Below, piece by piece: positions 31,901 to 50,891 of a stretch of 64,000 bases of DNA. The DNA lies in contig NZ_SDZL01000006.1 in NCBI RefSeq assembly GCF_004210735.1, forward strand, positions 1-64,000, given 5' to 3'. Numbering within the stretch: the stretch's first letter is position 1; every line of letters begins with the position of its first letter. The DNA is from Brevundimonas sp. (GTDB lineage: Bacteria > Pseudomonadota > Alphaproteobacteria > Caulobacterales > Caulobacteraceae). The notes under the pieces were generated by a model. That model did not search any database. It was not told where the DNA came from and saw nothing but the letters and a program-made list of their open reading frames with translations. Position numbers and translations under genes: made by a program.

Positions 31901-31940
31901 GCGCTCAGGCAGCGAGCGACCGCGTCGCGAGCGTTAGCGC
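31901..31940 (+). repeat. Nested-hairpin element, family C (long form)
   Basis: GCGCT-CAGGCA-GCGAGCGAC-CGC-GTCGCGAGC-GTT-AGCGC. Confidence 0.7.
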
Positions 31941-31941
31941 C

Positions 31942-32574
31942 CTAAAGACTCAAAAGCCCCTGCTCGGCCAGCGCATCCGCCAGATCGCCCGCCGGGGTCC
32001 AGACGCGGGTGTAGCCGGCCTCGCCCAGACGTTTCAGCTCGGTCACCAGATCGGCCTTGGGCGAGGCGACGAAGCGGGCGTCGAACCCGGCGCCGTCCTC
32101 GCTGATCCGCACCATGGGACGGCCGGTCTCCAGCCTGTGCAGGAAGCCCTCGCACAGGACGGCGGCCTCGTCGCCCAGCAGGCCCGTCTCGACCTGCAGT
32201 CCCGACTGGCGCAACCGCTCGGTGCCCCGGCCCGAGGCGAAGGGCGACGGGTCCAGCGCTGCGATCACCACCCGGCTGATCCCTGCCTCGCCCAGGAAAT
32301 GGGCGCAGGATTTGCGGCCCGACGACCGGGCGCCGCACGGCTCCAGCGTGACATAGGCGGTGGCGCCACGCGCAGCTTCGCCGGCCGCCGGAACGGCCTG
32401 TTCTTCGGCGTGGGGGCGCCCGCCCGGCGCGGTCGCGGCCTCGGCCAGCAGCACGCCGTCCTTGGCGATCACGCAGCCGACCGCCGGATTGGGCCAGGTC
32501 TCGCCCATCCGGGCCAGCGCCAGTTCGACCGCGCGGGCCATGAAGCGGCGGTCGTCGTCGGAATAGTTGCTCAT
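31942..32574 (-). CDS. Stand-alone RibD-like cytidine/deoxycytidylate deaminase-domain protein
   Basis: MARAVELALARMGETWPNPAVGCVI, HAEEQAV, VTLEPCGARSSGRKSC. No full RibD reductase domain. Overlaps the gpmA stop (ATGA). Confidence 0.8.
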   Translation of the reverse strand: MSNYSDDDRRFMARAVELALARMGETWPNPAVGCVIAKDGVLLAEAATAPGGRPHAEEQAVPAAGEAARGATAYVTLEPCGARSSGRKSCAHFLGEAGISRVVIAALDPSPFASGRGTERLRQSGLQVETGLLGDEAAVLCEGFLHRLETGRPMVRISEDGAGFDARFVASPKADLVTELKRLGEAGYTRVWTPAGDLADALAEQGLLSL

Positions 32575-33284
32575 CGGATCGCCGGCAGGGGCTGGGCCCG
32601 CCCCTCGTCCAGATATTTCGCCGCGACCGGCTTCAGTGCGGCGTCCAGATCGATCTCCAGCGGATTGCCGGTCGGGATCTCGACGCCGACGATCTGGTCG
32701 TCCGGCACGGCGAACAGGTGTTTGACGATGGCCCGCAGCGAATTGCCGTGGGCCGCGATCAGCACATCCTGCCCCGCCTTCAGGCGCGGCGCGATCGCCT
32801 CGTCCCAATAGGGCAGCACCCGGTCCAGCGTGGTCTTCAGGCTTTCGGTGTCCGGGATCGCCTTGCCGGCGTAGCGGGGGTCGGCGTGGAAATCGAACTC
32901 GCCACCGGCGGCCAGCGGCGGCGGCGGCACGTCATAGCTGCGGCGCCAGACCTTGACCTGATCCTCGCCGTGTTTCGCCGCCGTCTCGGCCTTGTCCAGC
33001 CCGGTCAGGCCGCCATAGTGCCGCTCGTTCAGGCGCCAGTCCTCGACCACCGGCACATCTTTCAGGCCCGCAGCGTCCAGCGCCAGCGCGCCCGTGCGCT
33101 GCGCCCGCGTCAGGACCGAGGTGAACATCACCGCCGGATGGAAACCCGCCGCCGCGATCAGTTCGCCGCCGCGCCGGGCCTGGGCCTCGCCCTCGGCCGT
33201 CAGGTCCACATCGACCCAGCCGGTGAAGCGGTTCTCGAGGTTCCACTGGCTCTGGCCATGGCGAAGCAGGATCAGGCGCGGCAT
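32571..33284 (-). CDS. gpmA: 2,3-bisphosphoglycerate-dependent phosphoglycerate mutase
   Basis: LILLRHGQSQWNLENRFTGWVDVDLTAEGEAQARRGG, LNERHYGGLTGLDKAE, AAHGNSLRAIVKHL. Confidence 0.95.
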   Translation of the reverse strand: MPRLILLRHGQSQWNLENRFTGWVDVDLTAEGEAQARRGGELIAAAGFHPAVMFTSVLTRAQRTGALALDAAGLKDVPVVEDWRLNERHYGGLTGLDKAETAAKHGEDQVKVWRRSYDVPPPPLAAGGEFDFHADPRYAGKAIPDTESLKTTLDRVLPYWDEAIAPRLKAGQDVLIAAHGNSLRAIVKHLFAVPDDQIVGVEIPTGNPLEIDLDAALKPVAAKYLDEGRAQPLPAIR

Positions 33285-33425
33285 CGAAGTCTCCGGTTAC
33301 GTAAGTTACGGGGTAGGCCGCGCCGTCGGGGTCGGTCAAGATTCGCCCGGTTCAACACCCGCACCCATAACGGCGTTCAGGCGTTGGTTGTCGGTCCCGG
33401 CCCACCCGGATAGACTCCCCTTCTC

Positions 33426-33503
33426 ATGTCGGACCGCCTCTTCTTTTCGCTGGCCCTGATCGCCTTTGTGGCGATGACGGCGCTGGCCCTGGTCTGGCCC
33501 TAA
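33426..33503 (+). CDS. Putative 25-aa single-TM microprotein
   Basis: ATG...TAA encoding MSDRLFFSLALIAFVAMTALALVWP; below the ORF track's size cut-off. Confidence 0.4.
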   Translation: MSDRLFFSLALIAFVAMTALALVWP

Positions 33504-33521
33504 GCACGTTCAGGACGCCTC

Positions 33522-35021
33522 ATGACGACGCCGCGCACGGACATCCGCCCCAATACGGCGGAGTACGAGACCCTCCCGCTCGTGAAGCCGACCGGCTTCC
33601 GCGAATATGACGCGCGCTGGATCCTGGAGAAGGAAATCAACCTGCTGGGCATTCAGGCGCTGGGCCTGGGTCTGGCGACCTATGTCCACGAGATCGGCCA
33701 GACCCCGCGCATCGTCGTCGGCCACGACTACCGGTCCTATTCGATGACCGTGAAACACGCCCTGATCCTGGGCCTGCTGGAAGGCGGGATGGAGGTTCTG
33801 GACGTCGGCCTGGCCCTGTCGCCGATGGCCTATTACGCCCAGTTTGCGCTGGACGCTCCCTGCGTCGCCATGGTCACCGCCAGCCATAACGAGAACGGCT
33901 GGACCGGGGTCAAGATGGGCGCCAACCCACCCCTGACTTTCGGTCCCGACGAGATCGGCCGCCTGAAGGAGATCGTGCTGGGCGACCAGGGCGTGAGCCG
34001 CCCCGGCGGCCGTCTGGAGCGGATCGAGGGCTTCCGCGACCGCTACATCGCCGATGTGGCGTCCAAGGTGAAGCTGTCCCGTCCGCTACGGGTCGTCGCC
34101 GCCTGCGGCAACGGCACCGCCGGCGCCTTCGCCCCCGCCGCGCTGCGGGCCATGGGCGCCGAGGTGATCGAGATGGACACCGAGCTGGACTTCACCTTCC
34201 CCAAATACAATCCGAACCCGGAAGATCACGCCATGCTGGTGCAGATGGCGGCCAAGGTGCGCGAGACCGGCGCCGACCTGGCCCTGGGCTTTGACGGCGA
34301 CGGCGACCGCTGCGGGGTGGTCGACAACACGGGCGAGGAGATTTTCGCCGACAAGATCGGCCTGATGCTGGCCCGCGACCTGTCGGCCAGCCATCCCAAC
34401 GCGACCTTCGTCGTCGATGTGAAGTCGACCGGCCTGTACAAGACCGACGAGGTGCTGAAGGCGAACGGCGCGACCACCGTCTACTGGAAGACCGGCCACT
34501 CCTATATCAAGCGCAAGACCGCCGAGATCGGCGCCCTGGCCGGGTTCGAGAAGTCGGGCCACTTCTTCATGGCCGGCGACCTGGGCCATGGCTATGACGA
34601 CGGACTGGTCGCGGCCGGCGCCGTGCTGGCCATGCTGGACCGCAATCCGGGCAAGAGCCTCAGCGAGCTGAAGGCCGCCCTGCCCGACGCCTGGACCAGC
34701 CTGACCATGTCGCCCCACTGCGACGACGAGCTGAAATACGACGTGCTGGCGAAGATCGTGAAGGAATACGAGGACCTGGCCGCGTCCGGCGGCTCGATTC
34801 TGGGTCGCAGGATCGTCGAGGCGATCACTGTCAACGGCGTGCGCGTGCATCTGGAAGACGGAAGCTGGGTGCTGGTCCGCGCCTCGTCGAACAAGCCCGA
34901 ACTGGTGGTGGTGGTCGAAAGCATGCGTTCGGAAGACGACATGCGCGCCCTGTTCCGCGAGGAGGTGAAGCCCCGCCTCGCCGCCCACCCCGAGGTCGGC
35001 GCGTTCAACCAGGAGATCTGA
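33522..35021 (+). CDS. Phosphomannomutase/phosphoglucomutase
   Basis: GFREYDARWILE, MVTASHNENGWTGVKMG, GFDGDGDRCGVVD, RASSNKPELVVVVES. Confidence 0.93.
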   Translation: MTTPRTDIRPNTAEYETLPLVKPTGFREYDARWILEKEINLLGIQALGLGLATYVHEIGQTPRIVVGHDYRSYSMTVKHALILGLLEGGMEVLDVGLALSPMAYYAQFALDAPCVAMVTASHNENGWTGVKMGANPPLTFGPDEIGRLKEIVLGDQGVSRPGGRLERIEGFRDRYIADVASKVKLSRPLRVVAACGNGTAGAFAPAALRAMGAEVIEMDTELDFTFPKYNPNPEDHAMLVQMAAKVRETGADLALGFDGDGDRCGVVDNTGEEIFADKIGLMLARDLSASHPNATFVVDVKSTGLYKTDEVLKANGATTVYWKTGHSYIKRKTAEIGALAGFEKSGHFFMAGDLGHGYDDGLVAAGAVLAMLDRNPGKSLSELKAALPDAWTSLTMSPHCDDELKYDVLAKIVKEYEDLAASGGSILGRRIVEAITVNGVRVHLEDGSWVLVRASSNKPELVVVVESMRSEDDMRALFREEVKPRLAAHPEVGAFNQEI

Positions 35022-35061
35022 CGGCATTTGACCCGGCGCGGTCTTCGGGCGAGGAACGGCC

Positions 35062-36372
35062 ATGGTCGAGTCTTCGCGAGAGCCCATCGTCATTGTCGGG
35101 GCCGGTTTTTCCGGATCCATGCTGGCGGCGCGGCTGGCCGAGGCGGGCCTGCCCTCCGTCCTGATCGGCCGCACCGATGATTTCGGTCTGGGCGTCGCCT
35201 ATTCCACGCCGTTCGCGGGCCATCTGCTGAACGTTCGTTCGAACCGGATGAGCGCTATCGAAGGGCGGCCCAATGACTTCGTCGACTGGCTGACGGTCCA
35301 CCACCCCGACCTGGCCGACCCCGAGGATTTCGCCCCGCGCCAGATCTATGGCCGCTATGTGCAGGACCGGCTGGCGGGCGCCGAGGCGGCCCATCCCGGC
35401 CTGATCGAACGGGTCGTGGGTCAGGTCGCGACCATCAAGGCGCACGGCGTGCGTCTGGCCGACGGCCGCCGCATCGCGGGCCGCGCCGTCGTCCTGGCCA
35501 CCGGCAATCCGGCGCCGAAGACCGCCGAACCGGGCGCCGGCGAGCGCATCATTCCCGATCCCTGGGCGCCCGGCGCGCTGGAACGGATCGGCATGGACGA
35601 CGACGTGCTGATCGTCGGCACGGGCCTGACCATGGTCGACATGGCGCAGGCGTTGACCGCGCGCGGCTGGCGCGGCCGGGCATTGGCCCTGTCGCGTCGT
35701 GGCCTGCTGCCCCGCGCCCATCGTCAGCACCCGGATCATCCCGCGACCCTGCCGCCCGAGGCGACCACCGGCCCGGCGTCCCGCCGTCTGGCCGCCGCCC
35801 GCCGTCTGGCCGCCGAAACCGGCTGGCGCGAGGTGATGGACGCCTATCGCCCGATCACCGCCGACCTGTGGCGCGAGACCGACAGCGGCCAGCGCGCCCG
35901 ACTGGTGCGTCATCTGCGCCCGTGGTGGGACGTGCACCGCCACCGCATCGCCGACCGTATCGCCCAGGCGCTGGATCAGCTGAAACAGGACGGTCGCCTG
36001 ATCGTCCATGCGGGCCGTGTGCGCTGCGTGACGGCCGACGCGGCGGGCGTGATCGTCGACTGGACCCCGCGCGCCGGCGCCGCCCAGCCGCCGCTGCGCG
36101 CCGCCTGGCTGCTGGACTGCACCGGTCCCGGCCACGACGCCGCCCGCGATCCCCTGACCGGGCCGCTGATCGCCGATGGTCGCGCGCGGCTGGATCCCCT
36201 GCGTCTCGGCCTTGATCTCGATGCGACCGGCCGCGTCCTGAACGCCGACGGCGCGCCCGATCCGGCCCTGTTCGTGCTGGGGCCGCCCGCGCGCGCCGCT
36301 TTCTGGGAGACCATCGCCGTCCCCGACATCCGCAAGCGGATCGAGGACGTGGTTCAGGCGCTGACGCCCTGA
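35062..36372 (+). CDS. FAD/NAD(P)-binding protein
   Basis: PIVIVGAGFSGSMLAARLAEAG dinucleotide motif; VLIVGTGLTMVDMAQAL second Rossmann motif. Confidence 0.88.
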   Translation: MVESSREPIVIVGAGFSGSMLAARLAEAGLPSVLIGRTDDFGLGVAYSTPFAGHLLNVRSNRMSAIEGRPNDFVDWLTVHHPDLADPEDFAPRQIYGRYVQDRLAGAEAAHPGLIERVVGQVATIKAHGVRLADGRRIAGRAVVLATGNPAPKTAEPGAGERIIPDPWAPGALERIGMDDDVLIVGTGLTMVDMAQALTARGWRGRALALSRRGLLPRAHRQHPDHPATLPPEATTGPASRRLAAARRLAAETGWREVMDAYRPITADLWRETDSGQRARLVRHLRPWWDVHRHRIADRIAQALDQLKQDGRLIVHAGRVRCVTADAAGVIVDWTPRAGAAQPPLRAAWLLDCTGPGHDAARDPLTGPLIADGRARLDPLRLGLDLDATGRVLNADGAPDPALFVLGPPARAAFWETIAVPDIRKRIEDVVQALTP

Positions 36373-36481
36373 TCGCTCGACGGTGAAAAGTTCTCCCACG
36401 CCGGGCAATGCGCGATTCTGGCGTTCGCTGGCGCGTCCTTCCGGGGTCGGCTATCACGCCTGACGGAGAGGAAACAAAACA

Positions 36482-37768
36482 ATGAACCGTCACCGCACCC
36501 GCGTGCTGGGCGACCGCACGCTCGCGCCCGAAACCCTGATGATGGGCTATGGCTATGACCCGGCCCTGTCGGAAGGCGCGATCAAGGCCCCGCTGTTCCA
36601 GGCGTCCACCTTCGTCTTCAAGTCGGCCGAGGACGGCAAGCGCTTCTTCGAGGTCGCCTACGGCCTGCGCCAGCGCGACCCGGACGAGGCGCTGGGCCTG
36701 ATCTATTCGCGGATCAACAACCCGAACCTCGAGATTCTGGAAGATCGTCTGGCCGTCTGGGACAAGGCGGACAAGGCGCTGGTCTTCTCCAGCGGCATGG
36801 CCGCCATCTCGACCGCCATGCTGGCGCTGGTGCGGCCGGGCGACGTGATCCTGTACACGGCCCCCGCATACGGCGGGACCGAATATCTGTTCGACCGCAT
36901 CCTGCCCCGCTATGGCGTCAAGGCGATCAGCATCCCCGCGACCGAGGGCGCCGACGCGCTGGACGCCGCCATGATCGACGCGGCCCGTCAGGCGAGGGCG
37001 ACCGGCGGGCGTCTGGCCGCCGTCTATCTGGAGACCCCCGCCAATCCGACCAATCAACTGGTCGACATCGCCCGCGCCGTGGCGGGGGCGAAAGCCATCG
37101 ACCAGGCCGAGCGCCCGATCGTCGCCGTCGACAACACCTTCCTGGGACCGCTGTGGCAGAGCCCGCTGGAGCTGGGCGCGGACCTGGTGCTGTATTCTCT
37201 GACCAAATACGTCGGCGGCCATTCGGACCTGATCGCGGGCGGCTGCATGGGCGGCGCCGACATCATGGCGCGGGTGGGCGAGATGCGGACCATCTGCGGC
37301 ACGACCACCGACCCGCACACCGCCTGGCTGCTGCTGCGCAGTCTGGAGACGCTGCACATCCGCATGGAGCGGGCGCAGCAGAACGCCATGGTTCTGGCCG
37401 AGCGCCTGCGCGCCGATCCGCGCGTGAACGAGGTGCTGACCGCCGGCGGCCCGGACGCCTCGCCCGAGCAGCAGGCCATCTTCGACAGCCAGTGCCGGGG
37501 CATGGGCTCGACCTTCGCCCTGCGCCTGCCGGGCGGCGAGGCCGAGGCTTTCCGCATGCTGAACGCCCTGACCCTGTTCAAGCTGGCCGTCAGCCTGGGC
37601 GGCGCCGAGAGCCTGGCCTCGCACCCGTCCAGCATGACCCACTCGGACTATACGGCCGAGGCCAAGCAGCGCAGCGGCATCGGCGACAACCTGGTGCGGC
37701 TGTCGGTCGGCATCGAGAATGTCGAGGATCTGTGGGCCGACCTGCAACAGGCCCTGGCCGCGATCTAA
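36482..37768 (+). CDS. Cys/Met metabolism PLP-dependent enzyme (cystathionine gamma-synthase family)
   Basis: YSRINNPNLEILEDRLAVWDKADKALVFSSGMAAI, YSLTKYVGGHSDLIAGG. Confidence 0.92.
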   Translation: MNRHRTRVLGDRTLAPETLMMGYGYDPALSEGAIKAPLFQASTFVFKSAEDGKRFFEVAYGLRQRDPDEALGLIYSRINNPNLEILEDRLAVWDKADKALVFSSGMAAISTAMLALVRPGDVILYTAPAYGGTEYLFDRILPRYGVKAISIPATEGADALDAAMIDAARQARATGGRLAAVYLETPANPTNQLVDIARAVAGAKAIDQAERPIVAVDNTFLGPLWQSPLELGADLVLYSLTKYVGGHSDLIAGGCMGGADIMARVGEMRTICGTTTDPHTAWLLLRSLETLHIRMERAQQNAMVLAERLRADPRVNEVLTAGGPDASPEQQAIFDSQCRGMGSTFALRLPGGEAEAFRMLNALTLFKLAVSLGGAESLASHPSSMTHSDYTAEAKQRSGIGDNLVRLSVGIENVEDLWADLQQALAAI

Positions 37769-37787
37769 GGCCGGATGCGGCGGGCGA

Positions 37788-39137
37788 TCAGCCCGCCGCC
37801 TTCACCGCCGCGGCCACATCGGCGACGACGCGCTTGACCAGCGCCTCGTCGTCGCCCTCGGCCATGACGCGGATCAGCTTTTCCGTGCCGGACGGCCGCA
37901 CCAGCAGGCGGCCGGCGCCGTTCAGCGCACCCTCGGCCTCGGCGATCGCGGCCTTGACCCCGGCGTCGTCCAGCGGCTTTCCGGCGGAGTAGCGGACGTT
38001 CTGGAGCAGTTGCGGCACGGGCTCGAACTGGCGGGCCAGCTCGCTCATCGGGCGGCCGCTTTCGACCAGGACGGCCAGCACCTGCAACGCCGCCATAAGG
38101 CCATCGCCCGTGGTGGCGTGGTCCTTCAGGATGATGTGGCCCGACTGCTCGCCGCCGATGTTGAAACCGCCCGACTGCATCCGCTCCATGACATAGCGGT
38201 CGCCGACCTTGGTCCGCTCCAGCGTCAGGCCCTCGGCCTTCAGACGCCGCTCCAGCCCCAGGTTGGACATGACAGTGGCGACCACGCCGCCGCCCGCCAG
38301 CCGCCCGCGCTTGGCCCAGTCCAGCCCGACCAGAGCCATGATCTGATCGCCATCGACCACATTGCCCTTCTCGTCGCAGATGATGACCCGGTCGGCGTCG
38401 CCGTCCAGGGCGATGCCGATGTCGCAGCGATAGCGTTTCACCGCCTCGGACACCGTGCCCGGATGGGTCGATCCGCAGTCCGCGTTGATGTTCAGGCCGT
38501 TCGGCTCGACCCCTACGGGGAACACCTCAGCCCCCAGTTCGTACAGGGTCGTCGGGGCCACGCGATAGCCGGCGCCGTTGGCGCAGTCGACGGCGATGCG
38601 CAGGCCCTTGAGGCTGAGCCGCTTGGGGAAGGCGGACTTGGCGATCTCGATATAACGCGGCGGGGCGTCGTCGATGCGCTTGACCCGGCCCAGACGGTCC
38701 GACGGCGCCAGGCCGTCGCCCAGCCCCTCGTCCATCATCGCCTCGATCTTCAGCTCAATCTCGTCCGACAGCTTGTAGCCGTCCGGCCCGAACAGCTTGA
38801 TCCCGTTGTCGGCGTAGTCGTTGTGCGAGGCCGAGATCATGATCCCCAGATCCGCGCGCATCGAGCGGGTCATCATCGCCACGCCCGGCGTCGGCAACGG
38901 CCCGAAAGTGCGCACATCCATGCCCACACTGGCCAGGCCCGCGACCAGCGCCGGCTCGATCGTATAGCCCGACAGCCGGGTGTCCTTGCCGATCACGACC
39001 AGATGGCGACGGTCGTCGTCGGTGCGGAACAGCTTGCCCGCCGCCAGGCCGACGCGCAGGGCGACCTCGGCCGTCATCGGATGGGTGTTGGCGCGGCCGC
39101 GAATGCCGTCGGTGCCGAAGTATTTTCTTTCGCCCAC
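37788..39137 (-). CDS. glmM: Phosphoglucosamine mutase
   Basis: GTG start then [80 protein letters not shown]. Confidence 0.96.
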
Positions 39138-39255
39138 GGCGTCGTCCCTTGCGTTTCGGGGCCGAAAGAAACCTTCCGAAACCCTTTTTTGGATGGCGCC
39201 GGTCCAATCATCCCCTAGATGCGAACCGGGCGGAACGGACCGGCTTAAACTGTCC

Positions 39256-39279
39256 GGCGTCGTCGCGCAAAGCGACGCC
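39256..39279 (+). promoter_or_regulatory. Hairpin in the glmS 5' leader
   Basis: CGTCGC-GCAAA-GCGACG nested in GGCGTCG...CGACGCC, about 30 nt upstream of the glmS ATG. Confidence 0.3.
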
Positions 39280-39308
39280 GTCCCGATCGAAAGCGTGGAG
39301 CGACCATC

Positions 39309-41123
39309 ATGTGCGGCATCATCGGCGTCACCGGCACGGGCCCGGCCGTTCCCCGCGTCATCGACAGCCTGAAGCGGCTGGAATACCGCGGCTACGATTC
39401 CGCCGGGGTCGCCGCCATCGTCGGCGGCGCCATCGAACGCCGCCGCGCCAAGGGCAAGATCCGCGAGCTGGAGGCCGTGCTGGCGGCCGAACCCCTGTCG
39501 TCGACCATCGCCATCGGCCACACCCGCTGGGCCACCCACGGCGCGCCGTCCGTGCCCAACGCCCACCCGCACAAGGCGGGCCGGGTCTGCCTGGTCCACA
39601 ACGGCATCATCGAGAATTTCGCCGAACTGAAGGCAGAACTGCAGGCCGAGGGCCGCGTATTCGAAAGCCAGACCGACACCGAGGTCGTGGCCCATCTGCT
39701 GGACCACAACCTGGCCAATGGCGCCGAGCCTCTGGCCGCTTTCAAGGCCACGCTGGACCGGCTGACCGGCGCCTATGCCCTGGCGGTGCTGATCGAGGGC
39801 GAGGACGAGCTGATCCTGGGCGCCCGGCGCGGCAGCCCGCTGGTCGTCGGCTGGGGCGAGGGCGAGATGTATCTGGGCTCTGACGCCCTGGCGGTCGGCC
39901 CCTTCACGCAGAAGATCAGCTATCTGGAAGAAGGCGACTATGTCGCCATGACGCGCTCGGGCGCGCGCATGTTCGACGCCTCGGGCGCCGCCGTGGAGCG
40001 CGAGATCGTCCAGGTCTCGGCCTCGTCGGCCATGGTCGAAAAGGGCGCCTATCGCCACTTCATGGAGAAGGAAATCCATGAACAGCCCGACAGCGTCCAG
40101 CACACCCTGTCCGAATACCTCGACCTGGTGACCGGCAAGGCCAAGGTCCAGGCCGTCGATTTCGCCGCCGTGGACCGGTTGCAGATCGTCGCCTGCGGCA
40201 CCGCCTTCTACGCCGGTCAGATCGGCAAATACGCGTTTGAAAAACTGGCCGGCCTGCCCTGCGACGTCGAGATCGCGTCCGAGTTCCGCTATCGCTCCCC
40301 CGCCCTGACGCCGGGCACCATCGCCGTGGCCGTCAGCCAGTCGGGCGAGACCGCCGACACCCTGGCCAGCCTGACCTGGTGCAAGGCGCAGGGCCTGAAA
40401 ACCGCCGCCGTGGTCAACGTCCACTCGTCCTCCATGGCGCGCGAGGCCGAAATCCTGTGGCCGACCCATGCCGGCCCGGAAATCGGCGTCGCCTCGACCA
40501 AGGCCTTCACCGCCCAGGTCTCGGCCCTGCTGGCGCTGGCCGTCGCGGCGGGCGTCGCGCGCGGCCGGATCGACGCGGTGCGCGAAGCCGAACTGGTCAA
40601 GGCCCTGTTCGAGGCCCCGCGCCTGATCGCCGAGGCGGTGCAGATGGACGTCCAGATCAAGGCCGTGGCCCATGACCTGGCCAGGGCGACCGACGTGCTG
40701 TTCCTGGGCCGGGGCGCCATGTTCCCCCTGGCCATGGAAGGCGCGCTGAAGCTGAAGGAGATCAGCTATATCCACGCCGAGGGCTATGCCGCCGGTGAAC
40801 TGAAGCACGGTCCCATCGCCCTGATCGACGAGGAGACGCCGACCATCGCGCTCGCCCCCCTCGACGACGTCTATGAAAAGACCGCCTCGAACCTGCAGGA
40901 GGTCGCCGCGCGCGGCGGCCCGGTGATCATGATCGCCCCGGCCAAGGCCCCGGCCCCGCACGGCGCGGGCATCCGCCGCGTCGACGCCCCCGACTGCCAC
41001 CCGCTGATCGCGCCGCTGGTCTATGCCGTGCCGGTGCAGCTGCTGGCCTATTACACCGCCGTGCAAAAAGGCACCGACGTCGACCAGCCCCGCAACTTGG
41101 CCAAGTCGGTGACGGTGGAGTGA
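39309..41123 (+). CDS. glmS: Glutamine-fructose-6-phosphate aminotransferase (isomerizing)
   Basis: [49 protein letters not shown]-terminal [15 protein letters not shown]. Confidence 0.98.
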
Positions 41124-41129
41124 TCTGAA

Positions 41130-41275: not shown

Positions 41276-41367
41276 AAGAGATCGAGCGAAACTCCTGCGG
41301 CGTGAGCGCGTTGGTCGGCTCTTGCGTTTGCGCTATGACGCATAACCTTGGCTGTTCAGGACGACCG

Positions 41368-42246
41368 ATGTCTCATTCCCCCGCCCGCCTTCGCAAGGCG
41401 GTCCTGCCTGTCGCCGGTCTGGGCACGCGCGTGCTGCCCGGCACCAAGACCACGCCGAAGGAACTGCTGAACGTCGTCGACCGGCCGATCCTGTCCTACA
41501 TCGTCGAAGAGGCGCGCGAGGCGGGGATCGAGCACATCGTCTTCGTCACCGGCCGCGCCAAACAGGCGATCGAGGACTATTTCGATCACCAGATCGAGCT
41601 GGAGGCCCAGCTGGCGGCCAAGGGCAAGACCGAGATCCTGCAGATCATGAACGCCGAACTGGCCCAGGCCGGCGAGATGAGCTTCACCCGCCAGATGCAG
41701 CCCAAGGGGCTGGGCCACGCCGTCTGGTGCGCCCGCGACATCATCGGCCACGAGCCGTTCGCCGTCATCCTGCCCGACGTGATCGTGGATTCGCAGCCGG
41801 GCGCCCTGAAACAGCTGGCCGACATCTATGCCGAGGTCGGCGGCAACGTCATCGGCGTCGAGGCCGTGCCCGAGGCCGACACCCACAAATACGGCATCAT
41901 CGACCCCTCGTCGCAGGACGGCCGCCGCTTCGCCATGAAGGGGATGGTCGAAAAGCCCGCCCAGGGCACGGCCCCGTCGAACATGTCGATCTCGGGCCGC
42001 TACATCCTGCAGCCGGAAATCTTCGATCTGCTGGAGACGCAGGAACGCGGCGCCGGCGGCGAGATCCAGCTGACCGACGCCATGGCCCGGCTGATGCAGA
42101 GCCAGAGCTTCACCGCCTATGAATACGAGGGCGTGACCCACGACTGCGGCGACAAGATCGGCCTGCTGCGCGCCAACGTCGCCCTGGCGCTGAAGCGCCC
42201 CGACCTGGGCGACGCCGCCCGCAAGGCGATCGAGGCGCTGCTTTAG
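41368..42246 (+). CDS. galU: UTP-glucose-1-phosphate uridylyltransferase
   Basis: RKAVLPVAGLGTRVLPGTKTTPKELLNVVDRPILSYIVEEA; GLGHAVWCARDIIG. Confidence 0.96.
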   Translation: MSHSPARLRKAVLPVAGLGTRVLPGTKTTPKELLNVVDRPILSYIVEEAREAGIEHIVFVTGRAKQAIEDYFDHQIELEAQLAAKGKTEILQIMNAELAQAGEMSFTRQMQPKGLGHAVWCARDIIGHEPFAVILPDVIVDSQPGALKQLADIYAEVGGNVIGVEAVPEADTHKYGIIDPSSQDGRRFAMKGMVEKPAQGTAPSNMSISGRYILQPEIFDLLETQERGAGGEIQLTDAMARLMQSQSFTAYEYEGVTHDCGDKIGLLRANVALALKRPDLGDAARKAIEALL

Positions 42247-42248
42247 TC

Positions 42249-42674
42249 ATGATCCGGCCCATCGCACCCGCCGACGCGCCCGCCCTGCTGGGCGTCTGGC
42301 GCCGCGCGGTCGAGGCGACGCACCATTTCCTGTCCCCCGCGGAGATCGACGGCATCGAACCGGACGTGGCGGCTTATCTGGCAAGCGGCCAGGGCCTGTG
42401 GACGCTGGAGGCCGAGGGGCGGCCAGTCGGCTTCCTGGGGCTGGACGGCGACGAGCTGGCGGCCCTGTTCGTCGATCCGGACGCGCACCGCCGGGGTTAT
42501 GGCCGCGCCCTGACCCTGTACGCCCTCGCCCACGGCGCCGCGCGGTTGAAGGTCAACGAGGGCAACCCGGGCGCCCGCGCCTTCTACGAACGCATGGGTT
42601 TCGTCGCCGTCGGCCGAGCCGAGACCGACGACGCCGGACGCCCCTGGCCGCTGGTGCTGATGGCCCTGCCCTGA
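42249..42674 (+). CDS. GNAT family N-acetyltransferase
   Basis: MIRPIAPADAPALLGVWRRAVEATHHFLS...LFVDPDAHRRGYGRAL...VNEGNPGARAFYERMGFV. Confidence 0.92.
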   Translation: MIRPIAPADAPALLGVWRRAVEATHHFLSPAEIDGIEPDVAAYLASGQGLWTLEAEGRPVGFLGLDGDELAALFVDPDAHRRGYGRALTLYALAHGAARLKVNEGNPGARAFYERMGFVAVGRAETDDAGRPWPLVLMALP

Positions 42675-42719
42675 CGCCTGCGCCCGCGTTCGACGCAGCC
42701 GACCGCTAACCTGCGCGTC

Positions 42720-42872
42720 ATGGTTCTCCAATTTCAGACTTTTCAGACGGTTCAGACCCTGTTTTTTGGTCGGGATCTGGAACGACACGCCTCACCACCA
42801 CGCTTTCGTCCCTTCTCGCCATCGGTTAGCAAGAAGCCACAGACGAATACGAAGGTTCGACCATGCGCGTGA
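42720..42872 (+). other. Possible 50-aa leader ORF containing three 9-nt TTCAGACNN repeats, overlapping the sqdB start
   Basis: MVLQFQTFQTVQTLFFGRDLE...KVRPCA-stop; the TGA at 42870-42872 overlaps sqdB by 10 nt. No obvious SD. Confidence 0.3.
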
Positions 42873-44086
42873 TGATTCTGGGCGGCGACGGCTTCTGCGG
42901 CTGGCCCACGGCCCTGCACCTGTCGGCGCGCGGCTGGGACGTGCTGATCGTCGACAACCTCAGCCGCCGCAACATCGACAACGAGCTGGAGGTCCAGTCC
43001 CTGACTCCCATCCGCACCATGGGCGAGCGCATCGCCGCGTGGAATGAGATCAGCGGCAAGACTATCGAATTCCAGAACATCACGGTCGGCAAGGAATTCG
43101 ACCGCCTGGTCGCCCTGATCCGCGATTGGGCGCCGGACAGCGTCGTCCACTTCGCCGAACAGCGGGCCGCTCCCTATTCGATGAAGTCGGCGCGGCACAA
43201 GCTGTACACCGTCGACAACAATCTGAACGCCACCAACCACCTGCTCGCCGCCATCGTCGAGAGCGGGCGGGACGTGCATCTGGCGCACCTGGGGACCATG
43301 GGCGTCTATGGCTATACGACCGCTGGCCTGCGCATCCCCGAGGGCTATCTGAAGGTCACGGTGGACACCGACTTCGGTCCGACCGAGCAGGAGATCCTGT
43401 TCCCGCCGAACCCGGGGTCGATCTATCACATGACCAAGACCCAGGACGCCCTGCTGTTCCAGTTCTACGCCAGGAACGACGGCCTGCGGATCACCGACCT
43501 GCACCAGGGCATCGTCTGGGGCGCCCAGACCGAAGAGACCCGTCAGGACGAGCGACTGATCAACCGCTTCGACTATGACGGCGACTACGGCACCGTCCTG
43601 AACCGCTTCCTGATGCAGGGCGCGCTTGGCTATCCGCTGACGGTGCATGGCTCGGGCGGCCAGACGCGGGCCTTCATCCACATTCAGGACACGGTGCGCT
43701 GTGTCGAGCTGGCGCTGAACAACCCGCCGAAATCGGGCGACCGGGTCAAGATCCTGAACCAGATGACCGAGAGCCGCCGCGTCCGCGACCTGGCCGCCAT
43801 GGTCGCCGCCATGACGGGAGCCGAGGTCCACAACGTCGCCAATCCGCGTCAGGAGGCGGACGAGAACGACCTGGTCGTCGCCAACGACCAGTTCCGCGAG
43901 CTGGGTCTGAAGCCGATCACCTTGGCCGAGGGCCTGATGGCCGACGTCACCGACATCGCCCGTCGCTACGCCGACCGCGCCGACCGGTCCAAGATCCCCT
44001 GCGTCTCCAGCTGGAACGGCGAGCGGGCCGAGGCGCTGCAATCGCAGGCCGCGGTGAAGGCCGCCCCACAAGCCGGAGCCGCCTGA
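42863..44086 (+). CDS. sqdB: NAD-dependent epimerase, UDP-sulfoquinovose synthase-like
   Basis: MRVMILGGDGFCGWPTALHLSARGWDVLIVDNLSRRNIDNELEVQSLTPI; VVHFAEQRAAPYSMKS; LGTMGVYGY; SIYHMTKTQDA. Confidence 0.85.
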   Translation: MRVMILGGDGFCGWPTALHLSARGWDVLIVDNLSRRNIDNELEVQSLTPIRTMGERIAAWNEISGKTIEFQNITVGKEFDRLVALIRDWAPDSVVHFAEQRAAPYSMKSARHKLYTVDNNLNATNHLLAAIVESGRDVHLAHLGTMGVYGYTTAGLRIPEGYLKVTVDTDFGPTEQEILFPPNPGSIYHMTKTQDALLFQFYARNDGLRITDLHQGIVWGAQTEETRQDERLINRFDYDGDYGTVLNRFLMQGALGYPLTVHGSGGQTRAFIHIQDTVRCVELALNNPPKSGDRVKILNQMTESRRVRDLAAMVAAMTGAEVHNVANPRQEADENDLVVANDQFRELGLKPITLAEGLMADVTDIARRYADRADRSKIPCVSSWNGERAEALQSQAAVKAAPQAGAA

Positions 44087-44120
44087 GGTCTTGCCCGACA
44101 TCCCCGCTCCCGCAGACACG

Positions 44121-44999
44121 ATGACCGACCTCGCGCGCCGCCCCGCCCTGCTGGTGTTCGGCGGCGGCTGGTTGGGGCGGGCGGCGGCCCGCGATGCCGT
44201 GCGTCGGGGCGGACGCGCCGTGCTGACCTCGCGCGACGCCGAACGCCGGGCGGCGTTGATCGCCGAGGGCTTCGGCGCCGTCGATCCCGCCGATACGACC
44301 GCGCTCAAGGCCGCCGTCGCCGCCGCCACGGCCATCCTGGTCACCGCCCCGCCGGACGCCAACGGCTGCCCCGGCGCGCGGGCCCTCCTGCCGGCGCTGG
44401 GCGGCGACGTCTGGCCCGACTGGATCGGCTATGTCTCGTCCACCGCCGTCTACGGCGACCGCGACGGCGGCTGGGCCTTCGAGGATGACGCCCTGAACGC
44501 CGCGACGTTGGAGGGCGCGCGCCGGGTCAAGGCTGAGCAGGACTGGCTGGACGCCGGGCGCGGCATGGGTCTGACGGTCCAGCTGTTCCGCCTGCCCGCC
44601 CTCTATGGCCCCGGCCGCTCGGCGCTGGAGCGCCTGTGGGACGGCACGGCGCGGATCGTGCGCAAGCCGGGCCAGGTGTTCAACCGCATCCACGTCGACG
44701 ACGCCGTGGCCGGTTTCTTCGCCTCCATGGCGCGCCCGCATCCGGGCCGGGCCTACACCCTGGCCGACGACGAACCCGCCCCGGCCGACGCCGTCATCGA
44801 ATGGGCCGCCGCGCGCCTGGGTCTGCCGCGCCCGGCAGAGATCGATCTGGACGAGCCGTCGGTGTCCGACGCCATGCGCCGCTTCTATCGCGACTCCAAA
44901 CGCCTCTCGAACGCCCGCGCCAAGGCCGAACTGGGCTGGCGCCCGCGCTATCCCGGCTACCGCGAGGGGCTGGAGGCGATCATGGACGCCCGGACCTGA
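44121..44999 (+). CDS. NAD(P)-binding SDR/epimerase-like protein (YeeZ-type)
   Basis: LLVFGGGWLGRAAARDAVRRGGRAVLTSRD; YVSSTAVYGDRDGGW; NRIHVDDAVAGF. Confidence 0.85.
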   Translation: MTDLARRPALLVFGGGWLGRAAARDAVRRGGRAVLTSRDAERRAALIAEGFGAVDPADTTALKAAVAAATAILVTAPPDANGCPGARALLPALGGDVWPDWIGYVSSTAVYGDRDGGWAFEDDALNAATLEGARRVKAEQDWLDAGRGMGLTVQLFRLPALYGPGRSALERLWDGTARIVRKPGQVFNRIHVDDAVAGFFASMARPHPGRAYTLADDEPAPADAVIEWAAARLGLPRPAEIDLDEPSVSDAMRRFYRDSKRLSNARAKAELGWRPRYPGYREGLEAIMDART

Positions 45000-45012
45000 G
45001 CGGAGACCGCCG

Positions 45013-45378
45013 ATGACCGACCACGCCACGCCCAACCTGCCGTCCCGGGATTTCGACCGGACCGAGGCCTTCTATGCGGCGCTGGGGTTCGAGCGGACCT
45101 GGCGTGACCACGGCTGGATGATCCTGAAGCGCGGCGGGCTGGCGCTGGAGTTCTTTCCCTTTCCCGACCTGGATCCGGCCACCAGCTCGTTCGGCTGCTG
45201 CCTGCGGCTGGATGACCTGGACGCCTTCTACACCGCCTGCGAGGCCGCCGGGATCAGGGAAGGCGCGGCCCAGCCGCCCCGCCTGCACCGCCCAACGCTG
45301 ACGCCGTCCGGCCTGCGCATCGGCGGCCTGATCGACCCCGACGGGACCTTGCTTCGGCTGGTGCAAAACCCGGCCTGA
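45013..45378 (+). CDS. VOC/bleomycin-resistance-like protein
   Basis: NLPSRDFDRTEAFYAALGFERTWRDHGWMILKRGGLALEFFPF...LIDPDGTLLRLVQ. Confidence 0.85.
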   Translation: MTDHATPNLPSRDFDRTEAFYAALGFERTWRDHGWMILKRGGLALEFFPFPDLDPATSSFGCCLRLDDLDAFYTACEAAGIREGAAQPPRLHRPTLTPSGLRIGGLIDPDGTLLRLVQNPA

Positions 45379-45398
45379 ACGCACAGCGCGCCCGTGAA

Positions 45399-45438
45399 GC
45401 GCTCAAGCAGCGAGCGACCGCGTCGCTCGCGTTAGCGC
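45399..45438 (+). repeat. Nested-hairpin element, family C (long form)
   Basis: GCGCT-CAAGCA-GCGAGCGAC-CGC-GTCGCTCGC-GTT-AGCGC; differs from 31901-31940 at 3 positions. Confidence 0.75.
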
Positions 45439-45448
45439 CTCTTCCTGC

Positions 45449-46057
45449 CTAGAAAGGCAGGATGTTGCGCTGGCGGCTGTAGCTCATGGTGCCGACATTG
45501 GCGCCCAGGCGCAGGCCGACGCCGGTGCGGATGGGGGCCAGGACGATGCCGTCGGCGCGCTGATAGTTCACGCCCAGACCGGCGATCAGATAGGCCGAGC
45601 CTTCCACGCCGGGGTAGCGGCGATAGATCATGTCGGGGTGGAACAGGCCGTAGACCAGGGTGAAGACCCGGCTGGCGTTGCCGCCCCAGTCCCAGCCGAT
45701 CGAGGCGCCCTGCCAGAACACCTCCTGCGAGGCGGACAGGTCCTTCATGTGCAGCGCGCCGCGCCCATAGCGCAGGCCGGCGACAGCCGCGCCGGACGCT
45801 TCCTCGCCCGCGATATAGGCGGTGGGGCGGTCGCCCTGATCGGAGAAGACGCGTTCGATGGCGCCGCCGATGGCTTCCGAGGCGATGCCCAGTTCGCGCG
45901 ATCCGGCCGCGACCAGTTCGTCGAACGTATAGGCGGGGGCCGTGTTGTCGGACCGGATCGGATAGTTGGGGTCGGCCGGCTGGCGCGTGGCGCAGGCGCC
46001 CAGGGCCGAGGTCGAGGCGACGGCCAGGCCGGAGGCGAGAAGGTGGCGGCGATGCAT
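45449..46057 (-). CDS. eipA: DUF1134/EipA-family envelope protein
   Basis: Signal/lipoprotein N-terminus; FDELVAAGSRELGIASEAIGGAIERVFSDQGDRPTAYIAGEEASGAAVAGLRYGRGALHMK...SIGWDWGGNASRVFTLVYGL. Confidence 0.75.
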   Translation of the reverse strand: MHRRHLLASGLAVASTSALGACATRQPADPNYPIRSDNTAPAYTFDELVAAGSRELGIASEAIGGAIERVFSDQGDRPTAYIAGEEASGAAVAGLRYGRGALHMKDLSASQEVFWQGASIGWDWGGNASRVFTLVYGLFHPDMIYRRYPGVEGSAYLIAGLGVNYQRADGIVLAPIRTGVGLRLGANVGTMSYSRQRNILPF

Positions 46058-46141
46058 GTCGATGGCTCCGGTCGATTTCGACGCGCCCGACTCATCGCGG
46101 GCCCTGCCGCGCACCGTCGCCGCGCTTTGCGGCAGCCTTGG

Positions 46142-46170
46142 GGCTGTAAGGTTAACCGGAGCTTACAGCC
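46142..46170. promoter_or_regulatory. Perfect 9-bp inverted repeat containing a CtrA-like TTAA-N7-TTAC site upstream of eipA
   Basis: GGCTGTAAG-GTTAACCGGAG-CTTACAGCC; TTAA 46152-46155, N7, TTAC 46163-46166. Confidence 0.5.
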
Positions 46171-46191
46171 GGGCCTCGCTCACTGCCGCCC

Positions 46192-46295
46192 GCCTCAAGT
46201 AGCGCAAAGCGCGGTAGGCCCTGAACCGGCCTCAAGCAGCCCGAAGGGCGGTAGGCCAAGCCTCCGGCCTCAAGCAGCCCGAAGGGCGGTAGGCC
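46192..46295 (+). repeat. Three tandem short-form family C nested hairpins (copies 2 and 3 at 38-bp period)
   Basis: 46192-46219 GCCT-CAAGTA-GCGC-AAA-GCGC-GGT-AGGC; 46228-46257 and 46266-46295 GGCCT-CAAGCA-GCCC-GAA-GGGC-GGT-AGGCC. Confidence 0.85.
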
Positions 46296-46303
46296 CCCTA
46301 AGA

Positions 46304-46852
46304 TCAATGCTTGTCGGTCTTGCTGGCGACCCAGTCCATCACGGCCAGCAGCACGCCCGAGGCGACGAAGGTCAGGTGGATGATCACCGCCCACATCAGC
46401 CCCGCCTCGTCCAGCGGATGGCCCGGCTTGCCGATGTTCATGAAGCTTTTCAGCAGATAGATGGCCGAGATCGCCACGATGGAGGCGATCAGCTTCATCT
46501 TCAGGCCCGAGAAGTCGACCGTGCCCATCCACGGCGGCCGGTCTACATGGTCCTCGTCCAGATCCAGTTTGGAGACGAAATTCTCGTAGCCGGAATACAG
46601 GACGATCAACAGCAGATTGCCCGCCAGCGACAGGTCCACCAGGCTGAGGATAGCCAGGATGGCGCCGTCCGAATTCATGTGCCCTTCGCCGATCACGAAG
46701 GCCTGCGGCACATAATAGAACAGTTCGCGCACGAAGACGGTCAGCAGCATGAACAGCGCCGCCACCAGACCCAGATAGAAGGGCGCCATCAGCCAGCGCG
46801 CGCGGAACAGGTTCCGCTCGAACGTCGTCTCGGCCCAGGGTTTCTTGGTCAT
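46304..46852 (-). CDS. UPF0114/TIGR00645 family membrane protein
   Basis: FERNLFRARWLMAPFYLGLVAALFMLL; LVDLSLAGNLLLIVLYSGYENFVSKLD; LLKSFMNI. Confidence 0.92.
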   Translation of the reverse strand: MTKKPWAETTFERNLFRARWLMAPFYLGLVAALFMLLTVFVRELFYYVPQAFVIGEGHMNSDGAILAILSLVDLSLAGNLLLIVLYSGYENFVSKLDLDEDHVDRPPWMGTVDFSGLKMKLIASIVAISAIYLLKSFMNIGKPGHPLDEAGLMWAVIIHLTFVASGVLLAVMDWVASKTDKH

Positions 46853-46855
46853 CGA

Positions 46856-49264
46856 TCAGGCCCTCAGTTCGGCGCCGGCCCTGGCGGCGGCAGCGGTGAT
46901 CTTGCCGGTCAGGGCCTCGATCTCGGTGTCGGTCAGGGTGGCTTCGCGCGGCTGGATCACGACCTCCAGCGCGACGGACTTCTGTCCCTCGGGCACGCCC
47001 TGGCCGCGATAGACGTCGAACACGCGCACGTCGGCGATCAACGCCTTGTCCGCCCCAACCACGGCCTTGACCAGATCGCCCGCCGGGCGGTCGCCATCGA
47101 CCAGGAAGGCGAAGTCGCGGGTCAGGGGTTGCAGCGGCGGCAGATCGGCCGCCGGGCGCGCCTTGCCCCGGGCGACGCGCGGCTCGGGCACTGCGTCCAG
47201 CATGACCTCGAAGGCGACCATCGGCGCATCGGCGCCCAGCGCCTTCAGCGTGCGCGGATGCAGGGCGCCGAACTCGGCCACCACCACCTTGGGGCCCAGC
47301 TGCAGGCGGGCCGATTGACCCGGCCGCCACCAGTCGCGATTCTGTCCCTCGACCAGCTGCAGGGACGCGACCGGCGCGCCCAGCTCTTCCAGCAGGGCCA
47401 TCAGGTCGCCCTTGAGCGCATACAGCGCCTGTTCCGGCTGGCCGCTCCAGTGGCGGGCGGCGTGGGGCGCGATCAGACCGGCGATGACCGTCTTCTGGTC
47501 GCCGGGGCGGTCGCCCAGATAGATCGGACCGATCTCGAACAGGGCCGCGTCGGCGTGGCCGCGCGCGGCGTTGCGCGCCGCCGCCTGGATCAGGTTCGGC
47601 AGCACTGACGGACGCATGCAGTCCAGTTCCGACGCGATCGGGTTTTGCAGCACCAGTCGCTCCGACCCGCCGCCGAAAGCCTCGGCGATCTTGCGGCTGG
47701 TGAAGGACCAGGTGACGGCCTCGCCATAGCCCATGGCCGCCAGCGCCCGGCGGGCGATGCGGATGCGGGTCTGGCGCGGGCTCAGCACGCCACGCGCGGG
47801 TCGGGCGACCTGCGGCAACGGCGTCGACGGCAGGGCGCCGTAGCCGGCGATGCGCGCGACCTCTTCCACCAGATCGGCGGGGCCATCGACATCACGGCGC
47901 CACGATGGCGGCGTGACCCGCCACGGCGAACCGGGAGCGATGTCAAAGCCCAGCGCCTTCAGGATGTCGGCGATGCGGTCGTCGCCCAGCGTCAGGCCCG
48001 ACAGGCGCGCGACATAGGCCGGATCGAAATCCAGCGGCTGCGGCAGGGCGGGCGTCTGACCGGCGGCCACGATGTCCGACGGTTCGCCGCCGCACAGGTC
48101 CAGGATCAGGCGCGTCGCCAGCTCCAGCCCCGGCACGACCGAGGCCGTGTCCACGCCACGCGCGAACCGGTACTGGGCGTCGGAGCTGATGGTCAGGGTC
48201 CGCCCGGTCTGGGCCGTGACGATGGGGTCGAACCAGGCGGATTCCAGGAAGACGTCGACCGTCTGATCCGAACAGCCGGTGCTCTCGCCGCCCATGACGC
48301 CGCCCAGGCCGATGGGCCGTTCGCCCGCCGCGTCGGCGATCACGCACATGGCCGGATCGACCTGATAGGTCTTGCCGTCCAGCGCGATCAGATGCTCGTG
48401 CTCGCCGGTATCGCTGGCGATCTGGCCGCCGCGCACGACGATCTCGGCCCCGACCAGCTTGGCCGCGTCATAGACGTGCAGCGGCCGCGCCTGATCATAG
48501 GCGATCAGGTTGGTCACATCGACCAGCCGGTTGATCGAGCGCAGGCCGATGGCCGTCAGGCGGCGCTGCAGCCAGTCGGGCGACGGCCCATTCTTCACGC
48601 CCCGGATCAGGCGACCGGCGAAGACCGGGCACATCTCGGGCGCCTCGATCCGCACCGCTATCGGCGACGGGAATCCGCCGCGCACCGGCGCGATGTCATA
48701 GGTCTTCAGCGTGCCGACACCCGCCGCCGCCAGGTCGCGCGCGATGCCCGCCACGCCCAGCCAGTCGGGCCGGTTCGGCGTCACCTCGAAATCGATCACC
48801 GGCTCGGCCCCGAACACCGCCGCCGCGGGGGTCCCGACCGCCAGCGTGTCGGGCAGTTCCTGAATGCCGTCGCTGTCGTCGGCCAGCTCCAGCTCGGAGG
48901 CCGAACACAGCATGCCGTTCGACACCACGCCGCGCACCGGCTTCTCGACCAGGGTCACGCCCAGGCCGGGCACGTAAGCGCCGATGGGGGCGTAGATGGT
49001 GGTCAGGCCCGGGCGCGCATTCGGCGCGCCGCAGACGATCTCCTTCATGCCGTCCACCGTCTCGACCTGGCAGACCTGCAGCCGGTCGGCGTTCGGATGG
49101 CGCTCGGCCGAGACGATCTTGGCCACCGTGAACGGCGCCAGCTTGGCGGTCGGGTCCGAGACATGCTCGACCTCCAGCCCGGCCATGGTCATGGCCTCGG
49201 CGATGGCGTGAACGTCAGCGTCGGTCTCGAGATGGTTCTTGAGCCAGGACAGGGTGAATTTCAT
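46856..49264 (-). CDS. pheT: Phenylalanine-tRNA ligase beta subunit
   Basis: [72 protein letters not shown]. Confidence 0.97.
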
Positions 49265-49274
49265 CGTCGTGTCC

Positions 49275-50390
49275 TCAGCTCAGGCCGCTGGCGGCGTTCG
49301 GCGCCGTGAAGGCCGAGAAGCCGTAGTTCTTCATCCACCGCACGTCCGCCTCGAACATGGGGCGCAGGTCGGTGATGCCGTATTTCAGCATGGCCAGGCG
49401 GTCGACGCCCATGCCGAAGGCGAAGCCCTGCCATTCGGCCGGGTCCAGACCGCAGCTGCGCAGCACGTTCGGATGCACCATGCCGCAGCCCAGGATCTCC
49501 ATCCAGCTGTCGCCCTGGTTCAGCTTCAGCTCGCCGCCCGATCGGTCGCAGCGGATGTCCATTTCCGCCGACGGCTCGGTGAAGGGGAAGTGGTGCGGAC
49601 GGAAGCGCGCGTCGATGCTGTCCATCTCGAAGAAGCGCGCCAGGAAGGTCTCCAGCGTCCACTTCAGATGGCCCATGTGGATGTCGCGGTCGATCACCAG
49701 ACCCTCGACCTGATGGAACATCGGCGTGTGGGTGGCGTCGGAATCCTTACGGAAGGTGCGGCCCGGCGCGATGATGCGGATCGGCGGCTCCTGACCCGTG
49801 GCGATCCACGGGGCCTCGGGCTTGTCGCCTGTCGTCTGCATCGTCCGCACCTGCACCGGGCTGGTGTGGGTGCGCAGCACCTTGCGCTCGCCCGTCTCCG
49901 GGTCGGGCTGCAGGAAGAAGGTGTCGTGCATCTCCCGCGCCGGGTGTTTGGGCGGGAAGTTCAGGGCGGTGAAATTGTGGAAGTCGTCCTCGATGTCCGG
50001 GCCCTCGGCCACGGCGAAACCCATTTCGGCGAAGATGTGGGTGACCTCGTCCATCACCTGCATGGTCGGGTGCACGCCCCCCCTGCGACGCGGACGCGAC
50101 GGCAGGGTCAGATCGACCCGTTCAGCCAGCAATTTCGCGTCCAGCTCGGCGGCTTCCAGCAGCGCCTTGCGGTCGGCGACGGCGGCGGATACGCGGTCGC
50201 GCAGGCCATTGATGACCGGCCCGTTTTCGCGCCGCTCGTCCGGGCTCATCGCGCCCATCCCCTTCAGCAGGCCGGAGATGACGCCGGTCTTGCCGAGCGC
50301 CGAGACGCGGATCTCCTCGATCGCCGACACCGTCTCGGCCGAGCCGATGGCGTTGATGAGGTCCAGTTCCAGTTGGGAAAGGTCGGTCAT
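49275..50390 (-). CDS. pheS: Phenylalanine-tRNA ligase alpha subunit
   Basis: [71 protein letters not shown]. Confidence 0.97.
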
Positions 50391-50421
50391 AAGGGTCCGT
50401 CTAGCGGTTGCGGTCCAAAGC

Positions 50422-50455
50422 AAAAAGCCCCCCGGCGCGGGCCGGAGGGCTTTTG
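50422..50455 (-). terminator. Terminator between rplT and pheS
   Basis: AAAAAGCCCCCCGGCGCGGGCCGGAGGGCTTTTGC; GC stem with T-run on the minus strand. Confidence 0.75.
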
Positions 50456-50477
50456 CTCGATCCCGTGCGGGAAAGAC

Positions 50478-50831
50478 TTAGGCCAGGGCCGCGCGAACCT
50501 TGTCGGCGACGGCCTTGAAGCCGGCTTCGTCGGCCGCGATGTCGGCCAGGACCTTGCGGTCCAGTTCGATGCCGGCCTTGTCCAGGCCGTGGATGAACTG
50601 CGAATAGGTGAAGCCTTCGGCGCGGGCCGCGGCGTTGATGCGCTGGATCCACAGGGCGCGGAAGTTGCGCTTCTTGTTGCGACGGTCGCGGTAAGCGTAC
50701 TGGCCGGCGCGATCGACGGCGGCCTTGGCGGTGCGGATGGTGTTCTTGCGGCGGCCGTAGAAGCCCTTGGCCTGCTTCAGAACCTTCTTGTGCTTGGCGT
50801 GGGACGTAACGCCCCGTTTCACGCGAGCCAT
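50478..50831 (-). CDS. rplT: 50S ribosomal protein L20
   Basis: [68 protein letters not shown]. Confidence 0.98.
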
Positions 50832-50851
50832 GATGTTTTTCCTTCGGGTGA

Positions 50852-50891
50852 CCTCTGGCGTTCGCCGCGCGGCGGCTCACTGCTTGAGAGG
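50852..50891 (-). repeat. Nested-hairpin element, family C (long form) in the rpmI-rplT intergenic region
   Basis: Minus strand CCTCT-CAAGCA-GTGAGCCGC-CGC-GCGGCGAAC-GCC-AGAGG; same 5+6+9+3+9+3+5 layout as 31901 and 45399. Confidence 0.65.

Follow-up and report, generated by a model that had tools for sequence, protein, structure and literature searches.

The ends of IS200/IS605-type elements and integron attC sites are folded single-strand hairpins with strand-specific unpaired bases. RAYT-linked REPs are palindromic repeats defined by a GT(A/G)G tag (PMC3686654). The GTAG-1 REPs of Pseudomonas, as presented in PMC3686654 and in the main text of PMC3733652, combine this tetranucleotide with two unpaired nucleotides, a variable palindrome, and a GAT-like 3-nt tail, as in the example GTGG-GA-GCGAGC-TTG-CTCGC-GAT. 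A second group, the CGTC REPs, is described in the main text of PMC3733652 as alphaproteobacterial and REP-like, with no dedicated transposase known. These repeats carry a CGTC (TGTC, CCTC) tag, 8-9 bp stems, 4-5 nt loops, and CCA tails, and they occur mostly as HH dimers.

The repeats described here from Brevundimonas work like REPs, since their layout, CAAG-YA-palindrome-GRT, parallels the GTAG-GW-palindrome-3-nt tail of the GTAG-1 REPs. They are palindromes of 20-40 nt with a variable complementary stem in many dispersed intergenic copies, and they also resemble GTAG-1 REPs, as portrayed in PMC3686654 and the main text of PMC3733652, in size, intergenic location at gene 3' ends, compensated stem variants, and tandem amplification. 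They differ in carrying a CAAG tag instead of GT(A/G)G, an additional complementary 5-bp outer helix, and clusters that are mostly head-to-tail rather than predominantly inverted HH or TT pairs, and no RAYT lies beside any CAAG copy found. Because both the tag and a flanking cognate RAYT are missing, as are the CGTC tag, 8-9 bp stem, and CCA tail, the CAAG repeats belong to neither the GTAG/RAYT nor the CGTC superfamily. Their internal loop and outer helix are undescribed for CGTC REPs in the main text of PMC3733652, which also makes no mention of Brevundimonas, Caulobacter, or a CAAG tag. Searches found no papers on REPs of these two genera, and a literature search with the core sequence returned unrelated primers only. 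The likeness to IS200/IS605 ends and attC sites is one of general architecture, as neither an associated Y1 gene nor a cassette structure was seen.

Seven copies lie in the 64,000-nt window, the whole stretch of Brevundimonas DNA analysed. The sequence-only reading had claimed six, and all six are real and were located as written, except that the first short copy begins at 46191 rather than 46192 and has a mismatched outermost pair; the seventh had been overlooked. The first long form (31901..31940, plus strand; GCGCT CAGGCA GCGAGCGAC CGC GTCGCGAGC GTT AGCGC; 63 bits with the covariance model) has a tandem G.A/A.G mismatch in its inner stem, and the minus-strand gene at 31942-32574 has its stop codon 1 nt from the end of the element. 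The second (45399..45438, plus strand; 64.5 bits) has a fully paired inner stem and a GTT tail, and it is flanked by the convergent genes 45013-45378(+) and 45449-46114(-). Three short forms make up a plus-strand array: unit 1 (46191..46220; 48.5 bits) with the C-C outermost mismatch, unit 2 (46228..46257; 52.6 bits) with a GAA triloop, and unit 3 (46266..46295), which is matched by the short-form covariance model and lies 8 nt from the stop codon of the minus-strand gene 46304-46852. The third long form (50852..50891, minus strand; 56.1 bits) sits between rpmI and rplT, immediately upstream of the rplT start. The seventh copy (51159..51188, minus strand; GGGCT CAAGCA GCTT GAA GAGC GGT CGCCC) is a decayed short form upstream of rpmI in which TCG replaces TAG, and it still scores 28.7 bits (E ~8e-7). 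As the earlier reading had held for its six, all seven are intergenic, at 1 to 151 nt from a neighbouring gene, with approximate gene limits taken from a codon-bias gene caller made for this analysis.

Pattern counts exclude a chance origin. A loose regular expression gave about 8 random matches per simulated window, and a specific pattern was used in its stead. CTCARGYAG-N6..24-GNTAG occurs five times in the window against 0.01 expected. Further copies, whose absence the sequence-only reading would have taken as a refutation, exist outside it: across the 2.83 Mb draft Brevundimonas genome the wider pattern matches 47 times and its reversed control 15 times, and for the stricter CTCAAGYAG...CGRTAG the two counts are 39 and 2. 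Together with covariation that surpasses shuffled controls, these counts rule out coincidence and confirm that the nested-hairpin elements are a genuine family, repeated dozens of times in this genome.

Copies in the Brevundimonas genome fall into two length classes. The 22 long copies have a 34-nt core, a C-CGC-G tip, and a 9-bp inner stem, and the 23 short copies have a 24-nt core, a 4-bp inner stem, and a triloop that is mostly GAA. A minimal class with a 20-nt core and a GC-GAA-GC tip prevails outside Brevundimonas among the matches listed. All classes carry CT-CAAGYA-G on the 5' side and C-G(A/G/T)T-AG on the 3' side; the tag is CAAG, or CAGG in a few copies, and the internal loop CAAGYA/GRT is strand-specific and near-invariant across many genera. 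The outer helix reads NNNCT/AGNNN, and its three arm bases beyond CT/AG vary freely yet stay complementary. Among 161 copies from named genomes, arm pairs 1, 2, and 3 are Watson-Crick in 94, 96, and 89% of cases and pair 4 in 27%, which is chance level; the outer helix is therefore exactly 5 bp long. About nine A-rich positions (37-68% A) follow the 3' arm, with no such bias in the 5' flank. Clustered copies mostly share a single orientation with few opposite-facing neighbours, and the array period equals the hairpin, its arms, and a linker of about 8-9 nt (35 and 38 nt in genome G039).

The tandem G.A/A.G mismatch that had been noticed in two long forms of the window is recurrent: of the 129 long-form copies gathered for this analysis whose tip is CCGCG, 92 have GA/GA at this place. 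The tail base is a purine in 80 of these 92 and a pyrimidine in 13 of 20 copies of the fully paired class (Fisher p 5e-6, with relatedness of copies left uncorrected). Since the mismatch class goes with a purine tail and the paired class with a pyrimidine, the long forms seem to split into two co-adapted subfamilies.

Stem pairing covaries beyond composition in both length classes of the Brevundimonas genome, which bears out the earlier suggestion of covarying stems around an invariant asymmetric spacer in a structured family of REP-like size, position, and layout. The covariation score is 0.449 against 0.113 in shuffled alignments for the long form (22 copies) and 0.341 against 0.088 for the short form (21 copies), and the minimal form compared across genera reaches 0.342 against 0.087. 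In each case none of 500 shuffles scored as high, and the signal vanishes once the partners are slid by one column. G.T wobbles are rare, at 2 of 308 inner pairs. Where arm pairs 1-2, the inner arm pairs, are broken, the CAAG strand carries G.T 18 times and A.C 4 times (p 0.004), an excess suggesting that it is this strand that must fold. When the loop of the GC-NNN-GC tip is left unconstrained in the search, a GNA triloop occupies it in 73 of 92 arm-bearing minimal copies. Because GNA triloops dominate and the sequence d(GCGNAGC) forms a hyperstable mini-hairpin in DNA, this preference favours a DNA-level fold, short of proof. A mini-hairpin DNA serves to stabilise aptamers in PMC4686876. The minimal 26-nt form folds no better than its shuffles with standard DNA or RNA parameters.

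Nearly every Brevundimonas genome carries the family above background level, and the named long-form matches are largely from this genus among the matches listed. In sampled sister genera of the Caulobacteraceae the pattern is at background level, but some genera in two further families of Caulobacterales have the repeat, with the highest count (188) in the 2.4 Mb genome G039, whose congeners G047 and G275 are low in copies. The distribution of the family across Alphaproteobacteria is patchy: most sampled families lack the repeat, one 1.7 Mb genome has 62 matches, and copy number ranges from a few to about 190 per genome. The minimal 20-mer occurs, among the matches listed, in Erythrobacter, Qipengyuania, Sulfitobacter, Shimia, Asticcacaulis, Parvularcula, and Robiginitomaculum, and also in actinobacterial MAGs of Nitriliruptorales and Euzebyaceae. 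Nearly all listed matches have complementary arms, though the arms were outside the search pattern. The Nitriliruptorales copies point to cross-phylum transfer or contamination of the MAG. One Nitriliruptorales MAG (L125:6820-7095) contains a 21-nt variant (CTCAAGTAGCGACAGCGGTAG) as two tandem pairs.

Arm-bearing copies also occur in more than 40 phage-like IMG/VR contigs, several of which hold multiple copies, and some adjoin putative integrase, repressor, or replication genes. Nearly identical arrays of three minimal elements (L421:11714-11805 and L417:181-272) sit upstream of genes in a putative Mu-like phage region. A blastn search of INPHARED phage records with a 36-mer gave nothing credible (E ~5 at best).

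Element positions in bacterial genomes were compared with gene ends and replication origins. In the Brevundimonas genome the 3' end of the element is often 4-15 nt from an opposite-strand stop codon, and a similar gene-end placement is described for REPs in the main text of PMC3733652. A hand tally of three single-contig genomes with dnaA located, which took the terminus as opposite dnaA, showed no clear replication-strand bias (about 46 against 37 loci). In the single-contig congeners G062, G035, and G008, elements appear dense near dnaA and nearly missing at the presumed terminus.

Orthologous loci reveal gain or loss of copies and coordinated stem change between close genomes. Several congeners carry a long form in the rpmI-rplT gap, with arms and stems that differ in sequence but remain complementary, and it is missing from others. 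Upstream of rpmI, too, several congeners have a short form. The comparison of genomes G025 and G001, which are 95.7% identical at the rpmI-rplT locus, took in about 290 kb of regions chosen as rich in elements. Among the first-genome copies, 26 have an intact orthologous element and 19 have none detected, and one array has three units in one genome and one in the other. The inner stem is identical in 15 of the 26 orthologous pairs, and 9 of the 26 copies show two-sided complementary inner changes, comprising 13 base pairs and 8 independent cases, as two map to one target. One such pair reads GAGCCGC-CGC-GCGGCGAGC in one genome and GAGCGAC-CGC-GTCGCGAGC in the other. One-sided changes affect only 3 inner pairs. 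The outer arms show 8 differences, none of them compensated, so short-term renewal is confined to the inner stem.

Independent mutation does not readily account for so many two-sided changes at such low divergence, which suggests that they are single events, either hairpin-templated copying or the transfer of a tip from a different copy. Template switching creates hairpins and keeps them through complementary changes (PMC8794818), and the likeness lies in both arms changing complementarily in one step. The process in that study is a general mutational one, whereas its target in the present case would be a family of dispersed repeats. A search between G025 and G001 for a clean empty site with exact insertion boundaries yielded none, as the sequence around differing sites is too diverged for junctions to be read. 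A CGTC-like second repeat (CGGGATGACG and similar) often adjoins CAAG elements in these two genomes, for example at L362 upstream of 4362(-) and at L348 near 10610; the window has a single bare GGGATGACG at 11005, which is at chance level.

The explanation favoured here, with moderate confidence, is that the elements are CAAG-tagged REPs, a RAYT-less, REP-like family of DNA hairpins in which hairpin-templated copying (or tip replacement) and selection together preserve the pairing of the stems. The unit would act mainly as folded DNA, one strand forming the 5-bp outer helix, the asymmetric loop CAAGYA/GRT or GTT, the variable inner hairpin, and the triloop, followed by about nine A-rich nucleotides. 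Copies may be gained through a trans-acting factor that reads the CAAGYA/GRT loop without a detectable Y1 transposase, and they may then multiply locally into head-to-tail arrays. Stem complementarity would be renewed when one arm is templated onto the other or when the hairpin tip is replaced from another copy, while purifying selection probably maintains the loop. Effects on the host, such as mRNA 3'-end stability or tuning within operons, would be secondary, as with other REPs. This explanation is supported by the GTAG-1-like layout, gene-end sites, covariation, exact helix, GNA triloops, rare G.T pairs, coordinated change, and turnover. Mobility of the unit is deduced from its patchy distribution and its presence or absence at loci, because no propagating protein was identified. 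The missing clean empty site, the uncompensated outer arms, and the folding of the minimal form no better than its shuffles speak against this explanation, as do two observations that would also fit RNA: a sense bias in phage-like contigs and the excess of G.T over A.C.

An RNA-level element, a rather doubtful alternative, would make the sense hairpin a protein-binding or processing signal (for mRNA stability, translation, or antitermination) that is used by phages and was recruited upstream of rpmI and rplT. Copies in phage-like contigs are oriented sense in 55 cases and antisense in 21 (copies not independent), and three related viral contigs keep copies upstream of one and the same small gene. 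The 18 to 4 ratio of G.T to A.C agrees with this proposal, and so do the elements that several species carry at the orthologous rpmI and rplT sites, each with its own complementary stems. Orientation in bacteria is mixed, however: in the Brevundimonas genome, counted from core coordinates with our own gene caller, the two flanking genes both run antisense to the element at 18 copies, converge at 15, both run sense at 11, and diverge at only 2 of the 47 matches. Copy numbers that run from a few to about 190, with most sampled alphaproteobacterial families lacking the repeat, are unlike a housekeeping signal, and the minimal 2-bp inner hairpin with its GNA triloop is favourable in DNA. No Rfam 15 covariance model matched at its gathering score or with a credible E-value.

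It is unlikely that the elements are ordinary REPs once spread by a RAYT that has since been lost from the genus and most carriers. The GTAG-1-like layout would fit such a history, and the alphaproteobacterial CGTC REPs are likewise without a flanking transposase in the main text of PMC3733652. The search for Y1 genes used PF01797 and is sound, because the positive controls in E. coli and Caulobacter vibrioides match. The cognate TnpA-REP (Y1 HUH) gene that the sequence-only reading had proposed to look for is absent from the window genome. The set of relatives gave no Y1 gene in 56 of its 61 genomes, and among 39 element-bearing genomes drawn from many genera 33 gave none. The remaining 6 of 39 carriers have one, which is consistent with loss elsewhere, but the sequence retrieved around the Y1 genes found (flanks of about 0.4 to 1.5 kb) contains no element. 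Genome G039, with its 188 copies, and nearly the whole genus Brevundimonas also lack a Y1 gene, and the tag is CAAG rather than GT(A/G)G. The REP/RAYT origin raised in that reading is thus not supported in its literal form.

It is highly improbable that the elements are transcription terminators or simply result from a GC-rich composition: the hairpins are GC-rich and lie downstream of stop codons, but an intrinsic terminator is ruled out by the lack of a T-run after the hairpin on the CAAG strand, where the flank is instead A-rich, and composition by the invariant 6x3 loop, the outer helix of exactly 5 bp, and covariation that no shuffle reached.

The CAAG-tagged REPs prove to be a much wider family than the window showed, with hundreds more copies in related bacteria and others in phage-like contigs. 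As a tentative extension, they may form a third large superfamily of palindromic repeats, CAAG-tagged and nested, which an enzyme other than a Y1 RAYT would carry as folded ssDNA from bacteria to phages and back, with tips rewritten concertedly at fixed loci. The sequence CTCAAGYAG...CGRTAG inside a 3-nt variable complementary frame is a sharp and easily searched signature, and because many genera and phage-like contigs share it, the trans-acting factor is open to phylogenetic profiling. Coordinated inner-stem changes between close genomes allow a direct test of hairpin-templated concerted evolution against slow compensatory mutation. REPs rank with the most common repeats in bacteria, and the CAAG repeats bear on how families without a RAYT, of which they would be one, originate and spread.
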